This document shows, one piece after another, positions 1 to 7,757 of a stretch of DNA of 7,757 nucleotides; the first letter of the stretch is position 1; every line of letters begins with the position of its first letter. The translations under genes were made by a program, and so were the position numbers. This DNA is from Caryophanales bacterium UBA1231 (GTDB taxonomy: Bacteria > Bacillota_I > Bacilli_A > ML615J-28 > CAG-313), in contig DBWT01000007.1 of NCBI GenBank assembly GCA_002309035.1, positions 19,157-26,913 of the forward strand, in the 5' to 3' direction. The notes under the pieces are model-generated. The model worked only from the letters and a program-made list of their open reading frames with translations. It was not told where the DNA came from and ran no database searches.

Positions 1-582
1 CAAACACGTGAAGAAATTAAACGTATTCAAAGAGAAACAGGTATAACAACTGTATTCGTAACTCACGACCAAGAAGAAGCTATGAGTATTTCTGACGAAA
101 TCGTTGTAATGAAATTAGGTGTTGTACAACAACAAGGCGTACCACAAGATGTTTATAACAAACCAGTTAATAAGTTTGTTGCTAAATTCCTAGGTACTCC
201 ACCAATCAACATGTTTGATGGTCAAATTAAAGATCACAAATTAATGATTGGCGATGAAGTTATTGACAAAGTAGATTTTGATGATCAAGAAGTTGAAATA
301 GGTATTAGACCAGAAGGATTCATTATCGTTGATGGTGCAAATAAGGGGGCTTTTTCTTTTGAAGTAGAAGCTGTTGAATTCATTGGACGTGATAAATCAA
401 TTATCGGTCGTCACATCAATTGTCAAAAACCAACATTTAGAATTCTAATTGATGCATCAATTCAAGGCATCGAAGTTGGAAAAATTATTAAAGCTGACAT
501 TAAACCAAATAAACGTTTTATCTTTGACAAGGTAACAGAAGTAAATATGGAGTATCAACCAGAAGAAGCAAAGGAAGAATAG
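1..582 (+). CDS. ABC importer ATP-binding subunit, UgpC/MsmX/MalK type (5' truncated)
   Basis: This is the C-terminal 193 residues of the cytoplasmic ATPase that powers a carbohydrate-type (CUT1) ABC importer. The frame is open from base 1, and ATG 82 is an internal Met, not the start. The H-loop motif VTHDQEEA lies at visible residues 20-27, with the switch His at 22, followed by the family-typical stretch SDEIVVM. Next come the usual hinge (QQG.P.DVY..P.N.FVA.FLGTPPINMF, about 43-75) and a TOBE/MOBE regulatory region (about 76-190) with the IGIRPE signature near 94-99. Walker A, the ABC signature and Walker B must lie upstream of the window; complete family members are about 360-370 residues. 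Two permease genes follow after 3 bases, so it is very likely the dedicated ATPase of this importer. MsmX-like ATPases can serve several importers, so sharing cannot be excluded. The family call is secure; the substrate is not shown by this subunit. Confidence 0.95.
   Translation, partial: QTREEIKRIQRETGITTVFVTHDQEEAMSISDEIVVMKLGVVQQQGVPQDVYNKPVNKFVAKFLGTPPINMFDGQIKDHKLMIGDEVIDKVDFDDQEVEIGIRPEGFIIVDGANKGAFSFEVEAVEFIGRDKSIIGRHINCQKPTFRILIDASIQGIEVGKIIKADIKPNKRFIFDKVTEVNMEYQPEEAKEE
570..575 (+). promoter_or_regulatory. Ribosome binding site of the first permease, inside the ATPase gene
   Basis: AAAGGA lies 10 bases before ATG 586 and within the last codons of the ATPase gene. It supports ATG 586 as the permease start and suggests translational coupling, because the ATPase stop is only 3 bases before that start. 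Confidence 0.7.
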
Positions 583-585
583 TTT

Positions 586-1506
586 ATGGAAGTCAAGCGT
601 AATCAAAGGGTTGCCTGGCTATATTTGCTTCCAACATTAATTTTGCTTGGGGTTTTTACAGTATATCCGTTGTTTAGAACAATCTTCATGGCGTTCTGTG
701 AAAACTACAATTATGCGAGAGATACTTGGACAGCTTTTGGGTTGCAAAACTTCAGAAATATTTTAACAGGCACATCATTCTTAAAATATTTAAAAACAAC
801 AACAATTATTGTATTTATTTCTGTTCCAGCATCTATTATCTTGTCATTGTTAATAGCTGTAGGATTAAATTCAATTAAAAAGTTTACCAAAATATATCAA
901 ACAATCTTCTTTATGCCATATGTAACAAATTCAATTGCAATCGGTATGGTATTCTCAGTTATGTTTGCTGGTGATAGAAGTATTGTAAATGCATTGCTTT
1001 CAAAACTTAACATTACACCAATTAACTGGTTAGGTGGTATATCACAATTTGGATATCCATCATATGTAACAGAAATGATTGTTTTACAAGTATATATAAT
1101 TTGGCACGCTTTACCATTTAAGATTTTAATTCTTTTAAGTGGTTTACAAGGTATTGATAAACAATATTATCAAGCTGCACAAATTGACTGTGCAACAAAG
1201 TCAAGAACATTACTAAGAATAACTGTTCCACTATTATCACCACAAATTGCCTTTTTACTTACAACCTCAATTATTGGTTCGTTTAAAGAGTATTCATCAG
1301 TAATTGGTTTGTTCGGTGAAAACGAAGGTGCTGTAGGTATGAAATACGACATGCGAACAGTTGTAGGTTATGTTTATGCATCATTGAAAGACGATAGAAT
1401 TGGTGCGGTTGGTGAGGCTTGCGCTGCATCCATTGTTCTATTTGTTATTATCATGGTGTTCACATTAATTCAGAACCTTCTTCAAAAGAAGAGAGTTCAT
1501 TACTAG
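586..1506 (+). CDS. ABC importer permease, MalF/UgpA-type
   Basis: Integral membrane subunit of the importer (306 residues, normal for UgpA-like proteins, which lack the large MalF periplasmic loop). The N-terminus carries the typical WLYLLPTLILLGVFTVYPL signature (about 11-29) as the first membrane segment. Further hydrophobic segments lie near 71-95, 106-128, 162-186, 220-238 and 277-299, giving the usual six. The cytoplasmic EAA coupling loop, which docks on the ATPase, is at about 196-218 in the form QAAQIDCATKSRTLLRITVP. It differs from the consensus EAA---DGA by Gln for Glu at its first position and Cys202 for the normally strongly conserved Gly. The tail is short and basic (KKRVHY). 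It lies between the ATPase and the second permease and probably forms a heterodimer with the latter. The start is fixed by the upstream AAAGGA. The family call is very secure; the transported compound is unknown. Confidence 0.94.
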   Translation: MEVKRNQRVAWLYLLPTLILLGVFTVYPLFRTIFMAFCENYNYARDTWTAFGLQNFRNILTGTSFLKYLKTTTIIVFISVPASIILSLLIAVGLNSIKKFTKIYQTIFFMPYVTNSIAIGMVFSVMFAGDRSIVNALLSKLNITPINWLGGISQFGYPSYVTEMIVLQVYIIWHALPFKILILLSGLQGIDKQYYQAAQIDCATKSRTLLRITVPLLSPQIAFLLTTSIIGSFKEYSSVIGLFGENEGAVGMKYDMRTVVGYVYASLKDDRIGAVGEACAASIVLFVIIMVFTLIQNLLQKKRVHY

Positions 1507-1510
1507 GAGA
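1505..1510 (+). promoter_or_regulatory. Ribosome binding site of the second permease, overlapping the preceding stop codon
   Basis: AGGAGA begins inside the TAG stop (1504-1506) of the first permease and ends 6 bases before ATG 1517. It decides the start of the long version of the second permease, including its unusual N-terminal membrane segment, rather than a later internal Met. Confidence 0.8.
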
Positions 1511-1516
1511 TAGAAT

Positions 1517-2548
1517 ATGTTATTAAGTATTATTATCTCACTAGTTGCGGCATTAATAATTTTATTAGTTGTTCTTGCTGCAAGCAAGCCTGGTCAAAAA
1601 AGAAAGAATATTTTACAAAAGAATCTTGAATATTCGGGTTCGAATGGTTCAGCAAAACTAGACGATGATTATCAAAGAAATATCAGAAGTGCAAAAATCG
1701 GAACATTCTTTAGATACTTTATCGCATATTTGTTGTTAACTATTGCGGCATTCCTAGTTGTTTTCCCATTCTATTGGATGTTTGCTACATCAGTAAAGAG
1801 TGCGGAAGAAGTTATGAAGATGCCTCCAACACTATTCCCTCATCAAATTCATCTTGAAAACTTTAGATTAGCAATGACAATGAGTAAAGCTAACTTTGGT
1901 CGATATATGATCAACACATTGATTGTTGGTGTTATCTCAACAATCGGTACTGTGCTTACAACAGTTAGTAGTGCTTATGCATTTGCGAGATTAAACTTTA
2001 AAGGAAGAGATTTATTGTTTGCATTCTTTATCGCAACAATGATGATTCCAGGTGAAATGATGGTTATCACGAACTACATTACTGTATGTTCAAGATACAA
2101 AATTGGTAGTTTCAAATTCACATTTGAAAATACCTATGCTGCTATGATTGTTCCTTTCTGGGTAAGTACATATTACATATTCTTACTAAGAAATACATTC
2201 AAGCAAATCCCTAATGAATTGTATTATGCTGCGAAAGTTGATGGAACAAGCGACTTTAAATATTTATTAAAAGTTATGCTTCCAATTGCCTCTCCAACCA
2301 TTATTACAATCACAATATTAAAGATGATGGGTGCATGGAACTCTTACGTATGGCCAAATCTAGTTACTGAAGGTGACATGAGACTTATCACAAACGGTTT
2401 ACGTTCGGCATTCTCAAGTGAAGACGGAACCGTAGTTCATTTAAAGATGGCTGCAACAACTGTTGTAACCGTTCCACTACTACTCGTATTTGTATTCTTT
2501 AGAAAATACATTATGCGTGGTGTTTCAAGAAGTGGAATCAAAGGATAA
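1517..2548 (+). CDS. ABC importer permease, MalG/UgpE-type, with N-terminal extension
   Basis: Second membrane subunit of the importer (343 residues; the family is usually about 270-300). Residues about 66-343 match the MalG/UgpE fold: the first core membrane segment with the VVFPFYWMFATSVK motif (about 80-94), the LFPHQIHLENFR region (106-117), NTLIVGV and SSAYAFARLNFKGR (133-174), MMIPGEMMVI (175-184), and an EAA coupling loop at about 234-257 (ELYYAAKVDGTSDFKYLLKVMLPI) that keeps the DG pair. The end, about 334-343, is of the usual G.SRSG.KG type. Ahead of this core lies an extra hydrophobic segment at about 3-22, followed by a Lys/Arg-rich, polar linker (24-62). This predicts seven rather than six membrane segments. 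The AGGAGA just upstream of ATG 1517 supports this start. It probably pairs with the preceding permease. The substrate is unknown. Confidence 0.94.
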   Translation: MLLSIIISLVAALIILLVVLAASKPGQKRKNILQKNLEYSGSNGSAKLDDDYQRNIRSAKIGTFFRYFIAYLLLTIAAFLVVFPFYWMFATSVKSAEEVMKMPPTLFPHQIHLENFRLAMTMSKANFGRYMINTLIVGVISTIGTVLTTVSSAYAFARLNFKGRDLLFAFFIATMMIPGEMMVITNYITVCSRYKIGSFKFTFENTYAAMIVPFWVSTYYIFLLRNTFKQIPNELYYAAKVDGTSDFKYLLKVMLPIASPTIITITILKMMGAWNSYVWPNLVTEGDMRLITNGLRSAFSSEDGTVVHLKMAATTVVTVPLLLVFVFFRKYIMRGVSRSGIKG

Positions 2549-2557
2549 AAATTTAAA

Positions 2558-2563
2558 AAGGAG
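2558..2563 (+). promoter_or_regulatory. Ribosome binding site of the substrate-binding lipoprotein
   Basis: A near-perfect AAGGAG sits 8 bases before ATG 2572 in a 23-base gap. It is the strongest such site so far in the operon, as expected for a binding protein needed in excess over the membrane subunits. Confidence 0.8.
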
Positions 2564-2571
2564 AAAGAAAG

Positions 2572-4032
2572 ATGAAGAAATTTTTTACATTTGTAACAGT
2601 TTTATTAGCACTATTTTTAGTAGTAAGCTGTGGTATGGAAGGCGGCGATGATGGCCATGTTAATGAAATCCCATCATATACTGCAGAAGAAGTTAAAAAT
2701 TTAAGTGCACATGTAACATTCTGGCACGCAATGGGCCAAACAAAATCTGCTATTATTGAAGAAATGGTTAAATCATTTAACCGTATTTATCCTAATATTA
2801 CAGTAAGCATTGCATCACAAGGTGGATATGATGACTTACGTGATAAGGTTAACAGTAGTTTTCGTACAGGTGGTCACCCAACACTTGCCCAAGTATATCC
2901 TGACCACGTTTCACTATATTTACACAGCAATGCTGTTCGTGAATTAAATTCATATGTTAACCATGAAACTTATGGTTTAACACAAGCACAATATTCTGAC
3001 TATATTGAAGCTTACCTTGAAGAAGGTAGAATTTACGATAAAGCAAAAACTTTATATTCTCTACCATTCAATAAATCTACAGAAGTATTATATTTCAATG
3101 CAACATGGTTCCAAAAACATGGACTATTAGAAAGATATAACTTAGGTTACATTGATGAAAATAAGATTTTCCAAAGAAATGAAGGCGCTGCATTATCTTG
3201 GGAAGATATCGAAGAAATAGGTCAATACTTTATTTCAACTCCTGAATATCAAGCAATGAACACTACAGAAAGATTAGATAACTTTGCATTCTCATACGAT
3301 TCAGAAGATAACCTATTCATTACATTAACATTACAATTTGGTGGTGAATACACAAAATTAACTGGTGAAGGTACTGGTGAATTCTTATTTGATAACGCTA
3401 AATCAAGAGCTGCAATTCAATGGTACTATGATGCTTACAAAGCAGGTTACTTCGTAACTGCATCTGCATGGCAAGCTGATTACACATCAGATAAATTCAC
3501 AAGCCAAAACGTTAAAATTACTGTCGGATCATCAGCTGGTTGCTCATACAATGACCCAGGAGATAAATTTACTCTAGGTGTACTTCCATATCCTCAATGG
3601 GAAGATCCAACAAAAGAAAAGAAAGTTATTCAACAAGGTACTAACGTAGCATTATTTAATTGTGACGACCCTAATGAAGAATTAGCTGGTTGGTTATTCT
3701 TAAAGTTCATCACTACTTGGACTGAAGGATTATCATACGATCAACAACCAACATATATTTGGGCTACACAATCTGGTTATTTCCCAATTTTAAATAGCTT
3801 AATGAACTCTCCAGAATATCAAGAGTTCTTATCAGGCGAAGGCGATACTAAGACTTTACAAGCTATCGTAGCAATCGTTGGTTACGAACAAGCTGGTTAC
3901 AACTACTTCTCACCTTCATTCTCAGGTACTTCTAAGTGCCGTGACGTTGTAGAAGGTTTAGTTGAAGCTGTTCTATATGCAGGTAAATCACTAGATCAAG
4001 CATACAGTGAAGCACTTGCTGAATTAAGATAA
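2572..4032 (+). CDS. Family-1 extracellular substrate-binding lipoprotein (UgpB-like)
   Basis: Captures the transported ligand outside the cell and delivers it to the two permeases. It has a lipoprotein signal peptide (MKKFFTFVTVLLALFLVVSC), with the lipobox ending at Cys20, so it should be tethered to the outer face of the membrane. Family motifs in order: VTFWHAM near 48-54; a helix leading to FNRIYP (69-74); SSFRTGGHPTLAQVYPD at 95-111, closely resembling the UgpB 'FRTG.AP.ILQVY' region; LPFNKSTEVLYFN at 164-176; KFTSQNVKITVGSSAG at 328-343; QQGTNVALF at 364-372; SGYFPI at 401-406. At 486 residues it is somewhat longer than typical UgpB (about 440). By eye, the 'GLRLGN' arginine that contributes to glycerol-3-phosphate binding in E. 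coli UgpB is not present in the SPSFSGTSKC segment (447-456). Glycerol-3-phosphate is therefore not a safe substrate call. The next gene being a nuclease makes a nucleotide-derived ligand plausible, but this is inference. Confidence 0.9.
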   Translation: MKKFFTFVTVLLALFLVVSCGMEGGDDGHVNEIPSYTAEEVKNLSAHVTFWHAMGQTKSAIIEEMVKSFNRIYPNITVSIASQGGYDDLRDKVNSSFRTGGHPTLAQVYPDHVSLYLHSNAVRELNSYVNHETYGLTQAQYSDYIEAYLEEGRIYDKAKTLYSLPFNKSTEVLYFNATWFQKHGLLERYNLGYIDENKIFQRNEGAALSWEDIEEIGQYFISTPEYQAMNTTERLDNFAFSYDSEDNLFITLTLQFGGEYTKLTGEGTGEFLFDNAKSRAAIQWYYDAYKAGYFVTASAWQADYTSDKFTSQNVKITVGSSAGCSYNDPGDKFTLGVLPYPQWEDPTKEKKVIQQGTNVALFNCDDPNEELAGWLFLKFITTWTEGLSYDQQPTYIWATQSGYFPILNSLMNSPEYQEFLSGEGDTKTLQAIVAIVGYEQAGYNYFSPSFSGTSKCRDVVEGLVEAVLYAGKSLDQAYSEALAELR

Positions 4033-4045
4033 TTATTAAAAACTC

Positions 4046-4050
4046 AAGGA
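4046..4050 (+). promoter_or_regulatory. Ribosome binding site of the nuclease lipoprotein
   Basis: AAGGA lies 8 bases before ATG 4059 in a 26-base gap with no hairpin visible. It supports the start that gives a complete lipoprotein signal peptide. Confidence 0.7.
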
Positions 4051-4058
4051 ATAAAACC

Positions 4059-5759
4059 ATGAAAAAAATTTGGTTATTTCTCTTATTAGGATTATTTGTT
4101 CTTGGACTTGCAAGTTGTGATGCATTCGGCAGCAGTTCCACTGAACCTACTCCTATTAATCCTGGGGGCCAATCAACAATCGATAACACGCAAATTGTTA
4201 GAGATGAAGATATGGTTACTCCATATACAGACAAAACAAAATTAAATCGTAACTTTGCTGGTAAATCATTCTTACGTGATGGTATCGGTGAAGTAGAATT
4301 ATATGTTTCAACTGATGGTGATACTGCTCAATTTAAAGAAGGTAACACAACATTTACAGTTAGATTCAATGGTGTTGATACACCTGAATCAACATATAAA
4401 GTAGAACCTTGGGGTAAATCAGCTTCAAGATTCACAAAAGCAAAATTAACAAGTGCTTATAAAATCGTTCTTCAAAGAGACGAAATTAAGACACAAGTAT
4501 TAGACTCAACTTTAAAAAGATATCTAGCATGGGTTTGGTATCAACCAAGCGCTGGTGCAGATTTCAGATTATTAAATCTTGAAATTGTTGAACAATCATA
4601 CTCTACTTCTAAAGCCAGTGGTACAATGTATGCAGATGCAATGATGGAAGCTGACTTACAAGTTCAACAACTAGTTGTACGTATTCATAATAACAAGGTA
4701 CAAGATCCAGATTATGATTATAGTGAAACTGGTAAATATTTATCAATTCAAGAAATTAGAGAAAATGCTGAAGAATATGGACAATCAGCAATTAAAGTTA
4801 TCGTTCGAGGCATAGTTGCTCGTAAGATTGGTTCTTATTCAGCATATATTCAACAACAAGCCGATGGTATTTGGTATGTTGGTGGACAAAGCTTAGGTGT
4901 AAAACAATCAGAAGACAATCCTGATATGCCATTTGTTGGTGAAAACGGCAATTGGTGGTATGGAGATGTAGACACAGAAATTGCTGCTCTTGGTGCAACA
5001 CCTGGTGATACTGCATATCAATATTATTTAGCTAATCACGAAGGTGAAGACCTAGATGAATTAGAATGGATGCAATCATTAGAAGTTGCAGAAGTTGATG
5101 CAGAAATGAATTATCCATATGTTGTTCGTCCAAATGAATGGTATGGTATATATCTATACGGTGGCTTCTCAGGTCAAGCAAGTAAATTAACAATTGGTTA
5201 TGAAGTAAAAGTAGCTGGTAACTTTAGTGTTTATGCCGGTTCAATTCAAGTAACTGGTGTTACAGCTAAAGGTATTGAAGTATTAAACCGTGAAAAACAA
5301 GAACCACATATTTATGATATTCAAGATGTTACAACATTAAATTTAGAAAATACACAAAAATTTAATACATTAGTTGAATTACATGATATCGAAGTAACTG
5401 GTGGATACAACACTAAAACTTCAGATGGATTTACACTTTATTGTAAAGATAGTCATGGCAATAAATTCAATGTCAGAGTTGATGGTAATACAGCACTTCA
5501 TACTACTGAAGATGGTGAATATATTCAAGTTGCTGAATCAACCACAACTACTGCTAAAAAAGGTTATTATAGTGAAGGCGTACTTGATGCAGATGGTTAT
5601 GGATTAGTTAACTGTTATCAATACTTCGTTGGGATGAAATTCTCTTCATTAAAAGGTATCGTCGCTGTTTATGATCCTTCTGTTGAAGGCGAAGCAAGTA
5701 ATGCACAAGTACAATTAATGCTTACTTTAATATCAGATATGATTATAAAAGTTGAATAA
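4059..5759 (+). CDS. Surface lipoprotein nuclease: SNase (thermonuclease) domain plus OB-fold-like modules
   Basis: Predicted Ca-dependent, sugar-nonspecific nuclease anchored outside the membrane (566 residues). The signal peptide ends in the lipobox LASC (Cys20), followed by a Ser/Thr/Pro/Gly-rich linker (24-40). The SNase domain covers about 75-205. All expected active-site and metal-ligand residues are seen: D86-G-D88-T, R102 in VRFNGVDTPE, D107, T108, E110, and R154 in the segment KRYLAWVW. These correspond to S. aureus nuclease D19/D21, R35, D40, T41, E43 and R87; the RLLNLEIVEQSYS helix (170-182) matches its later core. Next is an OB-like module (about 225-410, starting SIQEIRENAEEYGQ and IKVIVRGIVARKIGSYSAYIQ) with an acidic, Trp/Tyr-rich insertion at about 280-360. 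A second OB-like module lies at about 417-560 (LHDIEVTGGY, FTLYCKDSHGNKFNVRVD). B. subtilis YhcR likewise combines SNase and OB domains. Placement directly after the binding protein suggests that it feeds the importer. The nuclease call is secure; the OB assignment is by pattern. Confidence 0.92.
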   Translation: MKKIWLFLLLGLFVLGLASCDAFGSSSTEPTPINPGGQSTIDNTQIVRDEDMVTPYTDKTKLNRNFAGKSFLRDGIGEVELYVSTDGDTAQFKEGNTTFTVRFNGVDTPESTYKVEPWGKSASRFTKAKLTSAYKIVLQRDEIKTQVLDSTLKRYLAWVWYQPSAGADFRLLNLEIVEQSYSTSKASGTMYADAMMEADLQVQQLVVRIHNNKVQDPDYDYSETGKYLSIQEIRENAEEYGQSAIKVIVRGIVARKIGSYSAYIQQQADGIWYVGGQSLGVKQSEDNPDMPFVGENGNWWYGDVDTEIAALGATPGDTAYQYYLANHEGEDLDELEWMQSLEVAEVDAEMNYPYVVRPNEWYGIYLYGGFSGQASKLTIGYEVKVAGNFSVYAGSIQVTGVTAKGIEVLNREKQEPHIYDIQDVTTLNLENTQKFNTLVELHDIEVTGGYNTKTSDGFTLYCKDSHGNKFNVRVDGNTALHTTEDGEYIQVAESTTTTAKKGYYSEGVLDADGYGLVNCYQYFVGMKFSSLKGIVAVYDPSVEGEASNAQVQLMLTLISDMIIKVE

Positions 5760-5764
5760 AGGAG
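5758..5764 (+). promoter_or_regulatory. Ribosome binding site of the large lipoprotein, overlapping the nuclease stop codon
   Basis: AAAGGAG begins inside the TAA stop (5757-5759) of the nuclease gene and ends 6 bases before ATG 5771. This fixes the start and implies coupled translation with the nuclease. Confidence 0.8.
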
Positions 5765-5770
5765 TGGAAA

Positions 5771-7757
5771 ATGAAAAACAAAATTACAAAAATTCTTTTA
5801 GCGGTTTTAGTTTTCTTCGCATCAGCATTCTTATTTTCTTGCGAAATTAATGTTGGTGAAAACACAGGTCGTGTTGATGCTAAAGCTGCAGTTAAAGATT
5901 TCTTAAGCAATGATTTACTTCCAGAAATCGTTAACAACGTTGCTTTAAATAAAGTAACAAGTAATATTACTTTTGCTGATCCAGAAATTGAACCAACAGA
6001 AGAAGATTTAGAAAACAATTCTTATTCTGGTTTCATTCGTGGTGTTACAGCATACATTGAAACATCTCGTCCAGATGTAATCCATGCTGAATGGGTTTCA
6101 ACTGCACAAAGAGAATATGTTAAAGATGACAAAGGTACAGTTATTGGTGTACAAAAAACTGAACAAAAACATTTAGTTCTAATTGTTGACAGACAAGAAG
6201 AAGACGTAGAAGTTGAAATTACAGTTCATGCGGAAGCTCCTTATGCTGTTGGAACTAAAACACATTATTTCTCTAGTTCAAGAACAATTACTGTTACTGT
6301 AGCTGCAAAAGAACCTGCATTTGAAATGACTCTAGGCGAATTAATGAACCTAGCTTCAAGTGATTGGGTATACTTCCAACAACATGGTGTTGTTGATGCT
6401 GAAGGCAATGAAAAGTGCACAATTAAAGTAAGAGGTATCGTTACTGAAGAATTATGGGGCGATGGTTATGACAACCATTCATTCATGATTAATGATGGCG
6501 AAGCTTCACTTTATGTATATGCTCCTACTGGTGACACAGTTGAAATTGGTGATTTAGTAGAAGTTACTTGTGTTCCTACTACTTATTATGGTATTGTTGA
6601 AACTAGCCAAAAACCTGTAGTTAAAGTTCTTTATGGCGGACAAGCAGTTCCTGCTCCAAAAGCAACTTATACAGTTGATGAATTATACGAAAATGTATCA
6701 TTAGAAGATCATACAGTTGCTGGTCAAAGATATAACATTCAAGGTGTTTTAGCATATGAAAGTGGAAACTTTGTATTAAAATCAGACTCAACTGATAAAT
6801 TTGTTCAAATTTATTATAAAGCTTATACTGATTATGAAAAATCATTATTAAATGCTCAATTAGGTAATAAGATTGAATTAGAAACTTGTATTTATGATTC
6901 GCACTCTGCTGGATATTTACGTTTACTTCCTAACGTTTATGACTATCCAATCAAAACTTTAGAAATGACTGATAAAGAAAAAGTTGATTCAGCTAAATTA
7001 CAATTACAAGCTGCTCAATTTAAAGCTAAATATGAAGATGGTGATGAATTAGTACTTCCTACTGTTACAACAGAAGGTGTTCAAGTAACATGGTCATTTG
7101 AACCTGCATCTGCATATGCTGATGGTAAGATCGTTGCTAAAGCTGAAGGCACATTAAAATTAACTGCTGTTATTACAGTTGGTGCTGAAAGCGATACATT
7201 CGAAAAAGTTATTAATATTGCTCCTAAAGCTGGTGAAATCACTAAAGAATTAGTTGCAAACCCAGTTGCTGGAACTGAATATGTATTATTCATTAATCAA
7301 GTTCAATTAAAGAAAGAATTATACTTCACAGGTGAAAAAGCTGGTAACTTCCTTGCTACATCTGAAGAATTAGCTTCTGCAGCAAAAGTTATTCTTGAAG
7401 CTGCTGAAGGTGGATTCTACATTTCATTCAAAGATAAGAATGGTGCTAAGAAGTATATCGATGTTGATGAATATCAAGCTGGTAAGTTTGGTGTTGCTAT
7501 AACAGATGCTCCATCATGTGTATATACATGGGATGCAACAGTTATGACATTCAATACTACAAAAGGTGATTCTTACCTAGGATCATACAATCAAAATACT
7601 TCAATCTCAAGAAGTGCATTATCATACATTACTGGTGACAATGCTGCTAATATTGATGTAACTCAATATCCTGTTAGATTATATAAAGTAACTGGTGGTG
7701 AAGAACCAATCGTTGAACCAGAACCAACAATCGTTTCACAACCTGTTGCTGGTGAAA
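5771..7757 (+). CDS. Large modular surface lipoprotein with Ig-like and OB-like domains (3' end outside window)
   Basis: The frame stays open for 662 codons to the window end without a stop. The signal peptide has a KNKITK start, a hydrophobic core and lipobox LFSC (Cys24). Visible modules: an N-terminal region (about 33-178) with a helix then beta-rich sequence ending RTITVTV, perhaps Ig-like; an OB-like module (about 184-290: IKVRGIVTEE, HSFMINDGEASLYVY, VEIGDLVEVT); a second OB-like module (about 299-398: YTVDELYENVSLEDH, YNIQGVLAYESGNFVLKSD); and an Ig-like domain of the bacterial 'atrophied Ig' type (about 401-485: DKEKVDSAKLQL, LVLPTVTTEGVQVTWSFEP, GKIVAKAEGTLKLTAVITVG). The last is a module of unknown family (about 490-640: PVAGTEYVLF, LYFTGEKAGNFLAT, YLGSYN, SISRSALSYIT, YPVRLYKV). 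After a Glu/Pro linker (643-653), QPVAGE appears to open another copy. No catalytic domain is visible; one could lie downstream, since OB/Ig arrays often precede nuclease domains. Its role may be nucleic-acid or surface binding; function is inferred only. Confidence 0.88.
   Translation, partial: MKNKITKILLAVLVFFASAFLFSCEINVGENTGRVDAKAAVKDFLSNDLLPEIVNNVALNKVTSNITFADPEIEPTEEDLENNSYSGFIRGVTAYIETSRPDVIHAEWVSTAQREYVKDDKGTVIGVQKTEQKHLVLIVDRQEEDVEVEITVHAEAPYAVGTKTHYFSSSRTITVTVAAKEPAFEMTLGELMNLASSDWVYFQQHGVVDAEGNEKCTIKVRGIVTEELWGDGYDNHSFMINDGEASLYVYAPTGDTVEIGDLVEVTCVPTTYYGIVETSQKPVVKVLYGGQAVPAPKATYTVDELYENVSLEDHTVAGQRYNIQGVLAYESGNFVLKSDSTDKFVQIYYKAYTDYEKSLLNAQLGNKIELETCIYDSHSAGYLRLLPNVYDYPIKTLEMTDKEKVDSAKLQLQAAQFKAKYEDGDELVLPTVTTEGVQVTWSFEPASAYADGKIVAKAEGTLKLTAVITVGAESDTFEKVINIAPKAGEITKELVANPVAGTEYVLFINQVQLKKELYFTGEKAGNFLATSEELASAAKVILEAAEGGFYISFKDKNGAKKYIDVDEYQAGKFGVAITDAPSCVYTWDATVMTFNTTKGDSYLGSYNQNTSISRSALSYITGDNAANIDVTQYPVRLYKVTGGEEPIVEPEPTIVSQPVAGE

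Follow-up and report, generated by a model that had tools for sequence, protein, structure and literature searches.

We identified, in a 7,757-nucleotide stretch of the Caryophanales bacterium UBA1231 assembly (GCA_002309035.1, contig DBWT01000007.1, positions 19,157 to 26,913; hereafter the window, with coordinates counted from its first letter), 6 plus-strand genes that probably form a nucleic-acid utilization operon, in which nucleic acid would be digested outside the cell and an ATP-binding cassette (ABC) importer would carry short oligonucleotides in for degradation. In the proposed mechanism, a membrane-anchored staphylococcal nuclease (SNase) lipoprotein would cut extracellular DNA or RNA, while its OB-like module and a large OB/Ig lipoprotein would hold nucleic acid at the surface; a substrate-binding lipoprotein (SBP) would capture dinucleotides or short oligonucleotides at a site for phosphodiesters that resembles the one in the dinucleotide-binding protein of PDB entry 7c0f; a UgpA/UgpE/UgpC-like ABC importer would move them in; and cytoplasmic NrnA-type DHH/DHHA1 phosphodiesterases would cut them to mononucleotides, for use by SurE or salvage enzymes. 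For the first 2 steps the evidence is comparison of sequences and structures (of the active site and of the binding-site residues, respectively), and for the last 2 it is gene linkage; cargo, transport direction, and activity are what we infer. The original prediction, made from the window alone, had named products of DNA or RNA digestion as the cargo: nucleic-acid cargo is supported, and the SBP site narrows it, most likely, to phosphodiester-linked di- or short oligonucleotides.

Judged by its residues, the SBP (486 aa, 2572..4032, plus strand; SBP_bac_8, 8.2e-27) most likely binds phosphodiester-linked di- or short oligonucleotides. Its nearest solved relatives were dinucleotide-bound structures (7c0x, 3.3e-22 by sequence search and 3.1e-39 by profile), and in a Foldseek search with its AlphaFold2 model (pLDDT 91.6), entries of the dinucleotide-binding protein occupied ranks 1-25. 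This dinucleotide (U3G)-binding protein (PDB 7c0f-7c1b), presumably of Thermus origin and reportedly described in a FEBS J 2021 paper, has the same fold as the window SBP at 20-24% identity. The predicted site comprises Y86, Y109, D111, S169, Y304, S320, Y326, Q355, and Y403; among the 8 residues mutated in the 7c0f-type entries, 5 are identical in the window SBP, 2 are conservative replacements (F79/Y109 and T240/S320), and 1 differs (N81/D111). A six-residue version of the site, scored with serine and threonine both accepted at position 320, was complete in 65 of 67 SNase-linked SBPs and in the 7c0f protein (6/6), compared with 4/6 in E. coli UgpB. Ten unlinked SBPs of related genomes had 0-2/6 residues each and the complete site in 0/10; to supply these controls, 16 regions were fetched next to unlinked CUT1 permeases, 6 regions yielding none, and the controls are remote (E 4e-30 to 6.5e-6), so that single positions may be misaligned.

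The absence of the site from these other CUT1-type SBPs, together with a five-gene string kept in 61 of 80 loci (below), makes it very improbable that the transporter imports sugar and that the nuclease gene merely travels with it or functions in defense or matrix clearance, even though PDB molecule names among the SBP matches include sugar-binding proteins and the SBP_bac_8 and BPD_transp_1 families are mostly sugar transporters. Another alternative is a true Ugp system, importing glycerol-3-phosphate or glycerophosphodiesters while the nuclease scavenges phosphate in parallel. E. coli UgpB/UgpAEC shares the fold, the type of ATPase and permease, and the phosphate-binding residues, and UgpB also shares a Gly and an Arg with the window SBP; the ATPase, permeases, and SBP scored best to Ugp-type NCBIfam models, all well below the curated cut-offs, and by VIA-align Z the window SBP tied the dinucleotide-binding protein with M. 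tuberculosis UgpB, solved with glycerophosphocholine (GPC). Two Tyr and 2 Ser that bind phosphate are common to UgpB and the GPC- and U3G-binding proteins and are not shared by glucose-binding ones (PMC12718374; this and the other PMC papers are cited from excerpts of their text), and their counterparts in the window SBP are Y86, S169, S320 or S321, and Y403.

The part of the UgpB site that holds glycerol, a Trp clamp and a Glu (PMC12718374), was not found in the window SBP, where no residue aligned to the 2 clamp positions and UgpB Glu89 corresponded to Pro110. Proline occupied the Glu89 position in 66/67 linked SBPs, the clamp positions had no aligned residue in 48/67 and were never Trp in the remainder, and in 67/67 UgpB E254 and G306 gave way to Y304 and Q355, matching the dinucleotide-binding protein. 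Among the annotated clusters in the neighborhoods are NrnA, SurE, second nucleases, and a Na/Pi transporter; no annotated cluster is related to glycerol phosphate, with many neighbors unannotated. We thus consider a true Ugp transporter rather improbable, and on the SBP site residues we rejected both this and the sugar transporter as the best reading.

The SNase lipoprotein (566 aa, 4059..5759, plus strand) was annotated with PF00565 (6.8e-7, above the gathering score) and the NucI thermonuclease model (2.4e-10, below cut-off), and contains a nuclease domain at about residues 80-200 and an OB-like module at about residues 350-500. Residues D88, R102, T108, E110, and R154, equivalent to S. aureus D21, R35, T41, E43, and R87, were identical in 34/34 aligned relatives, and D107 (S. 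aureus D40) was D in the window and 10 others and N in 23/34. All 6 mapped positions are kept in the window, and the active site predicted from them appears intact, as had been claimed; the catalytic roles are ones that we take to carry over from the S. aureus nuclease.

SNases yield mononucleotides as well as short oligonucleotides, a point in favor of an importer of nucleosides, nucleobases, or mononucleotides, with the nuclease and further surface phosphatases completing digestion outside. A probable nucleoside or nucleobase transporter was proposed from gene neighborhood for Izemoplasmatales, and 5'-nucleotidases were predicted outside the cells of Ca. Izemoplasmataceae (PMC8289736); mycoplasma papers propose monomer import in general terms. 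Set against this, the window SBP is of the CUT1/UgpB type, its nearest solved relatives bind a dinucleotide, and its phosphate-binding residues are kept; nucleoside cargo is disfavored because a nucleoside offers no phosphate to these residues. The 6 window proteins also had no match to phosphatase families in Pfam and NCBIfam scans. The case against a mononucleotide is weaker than that against a nucleoside, and we regard monomer import as a whole as unlikely.

Import of short oligonucleotides also draws support from the conservation of the gene order. A genome scan with the SNase alignment gave 95 loci, of which the best 80 were kept by similarity to the window SNase family and thus favor this locus type; here and throughout, genome counts ignore relatedness. 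The order ATPase-permease-permease-SBP-SNase was complete in 61/80 loci, a second SBP being allowed, and a further 10/80 were compatible with it and cut by contig ends (L008, L017, L024, L027, L028, L041, L052, L054, L072, and L078). In L079, BLAST found all 5 genes, and the locus lies outside the 61 as 1 gene was lost in the open reading frame filter. No importer was identified near the SNase in 8/80 loci (L049, L051, L059, L063, L064, L069, L070, and L071); 5 of these (L049, L051, L064, L069, and L071) are stand-alone SNases of sediment Mollicutes metagenome-assembled genomes (MAGs) with a common neighborhood of gene clusters c28-c32. In the same scan, the window was nearest to a sheep-colon Bacilli MAG.

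In a class sample of 395 genomes, the permease type was identified in 222 (E<=1e-60; 164 at E<1e-115) and the SNase in 136 (E<=1e-30), and 130 of these 136 also had the permease type (Fisher p 7.5e-35), a figure that records presence in the genome and not adjacency. At most 3 or 5 candidates per genome were scored in these searches, so absences are soft. Conservation of the nuclease next to the transporter in relatives, on which the original prediction had staked its nuclease-linked importer, was thus found, and that interpretation is supported.

The importer itself is encoded by the C-terminal 193 aa of an ATPase of the UgpC/MsmK type (1..582, plus strand, open at the 5' end; best NCBIfam model UgpC, 1.1e-34, below cut-off), of which L002:5256-6530 is a full-length ortholog, a UgpA-like permease 1 (306 aa, 586..1506, plus strand; BPD_transp_1, 3.7e-14; UgpA, 1.9e-19, below cut-off), and a UgpE-like permease 2 (343 aa, 1517..2548, plus strand; BPD_transp_1, 6.6e-20). 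In a permease 2 tree, 67 SNase-linked sequences, including that of the window, and 2 second-copy sequences (L065 and L067) lay behind a branch of length 1.47 with 100/99 support, and 18 CUT1 paralogs from 11 of the genomes fell outside it, the order among these long-branched paralogs being unsure. Because this branch sets the SNase-linked permeases apart, the transporter appears to be a separate lineage and not a recently borrowed sugar importer. Downstream of their SNase clusters, loci L065, L067, and L073 each carry another ATPase-permease-permease-SBP set, of the same type as the first, and in 28/61 five-gene loci the importer comes after the housekeeping genes dnaX-ybaB-recR (e.g., L002:1556-5226).

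NrnA-type DHH/DHHA1 genes, best matched by the NrnA model and below its 350-bit cut-off in every genome searched, controls included, were identified downstream in 16 of the 30 five-gene loci with enough downstream sequence, as 2 copies in 15 of the 16, starting 3.0-6.2 kb past the SNase. None was found in the other 14/30, with at least 7.5 kb downstream available, and 31/61 loci were too short to assess; 4 loci outside the five-gene set (L024, L052, L054, and L079) also had NrnA. In some loci, SurE or a Na/Pi cotransporter that has a PhoU domain is also encoded. The NrnA-type proteins should act inside the cell because no evident signal peptide could be read from their sequences, and NrnA substrates are 2-5-mers, with 2 such proteins in M. 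bovis (PMC7373297).

NrnA and SurE lie beyond the window, and their presence at its locus would follow from relatives. In the closest relative in the genome collection (L002/G002), whose SNase is 63% identical to that of the window, the contig with the importer breaks off partway through the large lipoprotein gene. The final 80 bases of this contig are identical to those that open a second contig, on which the rest of that gene is followed by NrnA, NrnA, and SurE; the contigs are unjoined, and an 80-base overlap of this kind could, in principle, also arise from a repeat. Among 70 further genomes, taken from the best-scoring permease matches listed, 65 had NrnA and 5/70 had none at 1e-45. In 17 of the 65, NrnA and the permease were no more than 15 kb apart, against a random expectation of about 4%; 6 had the two genes farther apart on one contig, and 42 had them on separate contigs. 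A purH match was absent in 36/43 genomes of the order and a pyrC match in 34/43, all drafts, so that most genomes of the order probably need salvage; the closest relative has pyrC and lacks a purH match.

Eight small genomes (0.6-0.9 Mb), chosen for size from the permease matches, keep ATPase-permease-permease-SBP-NrnA with no SNase in the fetched stretch; a ninth genome searched (G090) has an SNase. In these 8 (L137-L144, from G326, G253, G366, G282, G276, G230, G315, and G407), the order is ATPase, permease, permease, SBP, NrnA, MnmE, and in the first 6 MnmE is followed by another NrnA; the SBP site is partly altered, with W replacing Y86 and Q, S, or G replacing Y403. In gene order and size, L137-L144 are reminiscent of phytoplasmas.

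Nuclease-linked importers have been described in mycoplasmas and in Izemoplasmatales. Mycoplasma agalactiae MAG_5030-5070 encodes, by description, the same 5 functions (P80 binding protein, SNase, ABC ATPase, and 2 permeases); these genes were reported to be co-transcribed, the nuclease was shown to be active, and import of nucleic-acid precursors was proposed (PMC3585158). The concept also appears in a review (PMC9740415), and the mycoplasma comparison drawn in the original prediction agrees, again by description, with these accounts. By gene content, the window belongs with the nuclease-linked ABC importer clusters of Mollicutes, its SNase lipoprotein adjoining a UgpC/A/E-type importer and SBP on one strand. 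The order differs, however, being SBP-SNase-ATPase-permease-permease in M. agalactiae and ATPase-permease-permease-SBP-SNase-large lipoprotein in the window, and the M. agalactiae SBP was predicted to bind sugar, unlike our reading of the window SBP (PMC3585158).

In Izemoplasmatales, "DNA-degradation loci" were described (PMC8289736, PMC8397711, and PMC10470597); one of these papers puts ABC transporters, NrnA, and a nucleoid-associated protein in a single locus and counts RecR among its upregulated genes (PMC10470597). We identified the same locus type in MAG-BB-5, Ca. Izemoplasma acidinucleici (L011), with an ABC importer, 2 SNases, a 1,049-aa large lipoprotein, an NrnA pair, and a Na/Pi transporter. 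By comparison, the window has the importer, the SNase, and a truncated large lipoprotein in which no LTD was seen, and NrnA is seen only in relatives; the published cargo is nucleoside or nucleobase (PMC8289736), whereas our reading of the window points to di- or oligonucleotides. No proposal of oligonucleotide cargo for this system was found in the literature searched (listings and excerpts of open-licence PMC papers). While the cluster idea itself is already published, the dinucleotide-type site, the fact that it is nearly fixed among SNase-linked loci, and the oligonucleotide route appear to be new.

The sixth gene encodes the large lipoprotein (662 aa shown, 5771..7757, plus strand, open at the 3' end), with candidate OB-like and atrophied-Ig modules. 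Residues 352-531 of the SNase lipoprotein aligned to residues 236-378 of the large lipoprotein (hhalign probability 95.7%, 143 aligned columns), and this common module reads as OB-like. The structural model of the large lipoprotein is of low confidence (mean pLDDT 69, pTM 0.47); Foldseek with its better half gave weak matches to HIN-200 tandem OB and CST-type OB DNA-binding domains, and the HIN-200 matches are only a hint. Both lines are in keeping with the OB-like modules first proposed from sequence, and the SNase-lipoprotein module and the large lipoprotein may retain nucleic acid at the cell surface. In Pfam scans, the window protein had a sub-threshold aBig_2 match (2.9e-4) and 1 weaker sub-threshold match, with no LTD seen, so the Ig part rests on this match and on clear matches in relatives; a 942-aa relative (P0241) covers 98% of the 662 aa shown.

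Ten scanned proteins of relatives, of the large-lipoprotein type or in its place, had aBig_2 or Big_2, some OB/S1-like or LTD domains, and a few weak others, and no Pfam nuclease family, and a nuclease domain in the large lipoprotein was rejected. The L011 protein matches in size the 1,049-aa protein to which a nuclease domain was given (PMC8289736), whereas our scan identified only aBig_2, LTD, and S1, along with 1 partial ExeM/NucH match below cut-off. The large lipoprotein had also been put forward as making the window a distinct version of the cluster, a claim that did not stand, as genes of this type were identified in 48/80 loci, including L011, and such a protein is already described for Izemoplasmatales. 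In the 61 five-gene loci, the gene after the SNase or SNase pair was a large lipoprotein of the window type in 37 and another gene in 18, with 6 loci too short. A second clade (L018, L019, L048, L053, L055-L058, L061, L068, L075, and L080) has instead a lipoprotein-like gene of about 404 aa (cluster c15), with no confident Pfam match in the 1 member scanned, and in L145 and L146 a large aBig_2 lipoprotein comes immediately after the importer and SBP, no SNase intervening.

Taken more widely, we see about even chances that this is a widespread di-/oligonucleotide utilization locus, a nucleic-acid counterpart of the polysaccharide utilization locus, with a nuclease outside, a dedicated dinucleotide ABC importer, and nanoRNases inside. 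Such a locus would assign a physiological function to those ABC binding proteins that belong to the dinucleotide-binding class. In Bacilli and Mollicutes, many importers that carry the annotation "ugp" would then turn out not to transport glycerol phosphate, correcting a likely misannotation of a permease type present in 222/395 class genomes. Base, sugar, and phosphate would enter in one step without dephosphorylation outside, the neighboring NrnA genes would be explained, and the published account of environmental DNA uptake in Izemoplasma-type cells would shift from import of nucleosides to import of intact phosphodiesters. In the small host-bound genomes without the nuclease, the importer beside NrnA may take up ready-made short oligonucleotides from its surroundings, signaling dinucleotides perhaps among them. 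Because of the SBP binding-site match, the cargo prediction, dinucleotides or short oligonucleotides, is specific and cheaply testable.

Further features of the window were annotated. The open reading frame list and domain scans bear out the 6 same-strand genes and the identities first given to the ATPase, permeases, SBP, and SNase; intergenic gaps are 3, 10, 23, 26, and 11 bases, and the first and last genes are cut by the window ends. Neither a tRNA, an Rfam family at the gathering score, nor a plus-strand terminator-like site was identified in the window, and the short gaps (3-26 bases) together with the lack of such a site are only suggestive of a single transcript. Lipobox-like N-termini were read at C20 in the SBP and SNase lipoprotein and at C24 in the large lipoprotein. 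In viral contigs, 5 stretches fit the search pattern, and none encoded a relative. Most genomes of the family of G002 carry a separate small SNase (about 255-282 aa) elsewhere, for example, at G004:C3:167540-168022 and G002:C2:42895-43356. The window SBP also had a weak NCBIfam match to the mycoplasma P68 surface lipoprotein family (8.4e-6, below cut-off), a possible link to mycoplasma lipoproteins.

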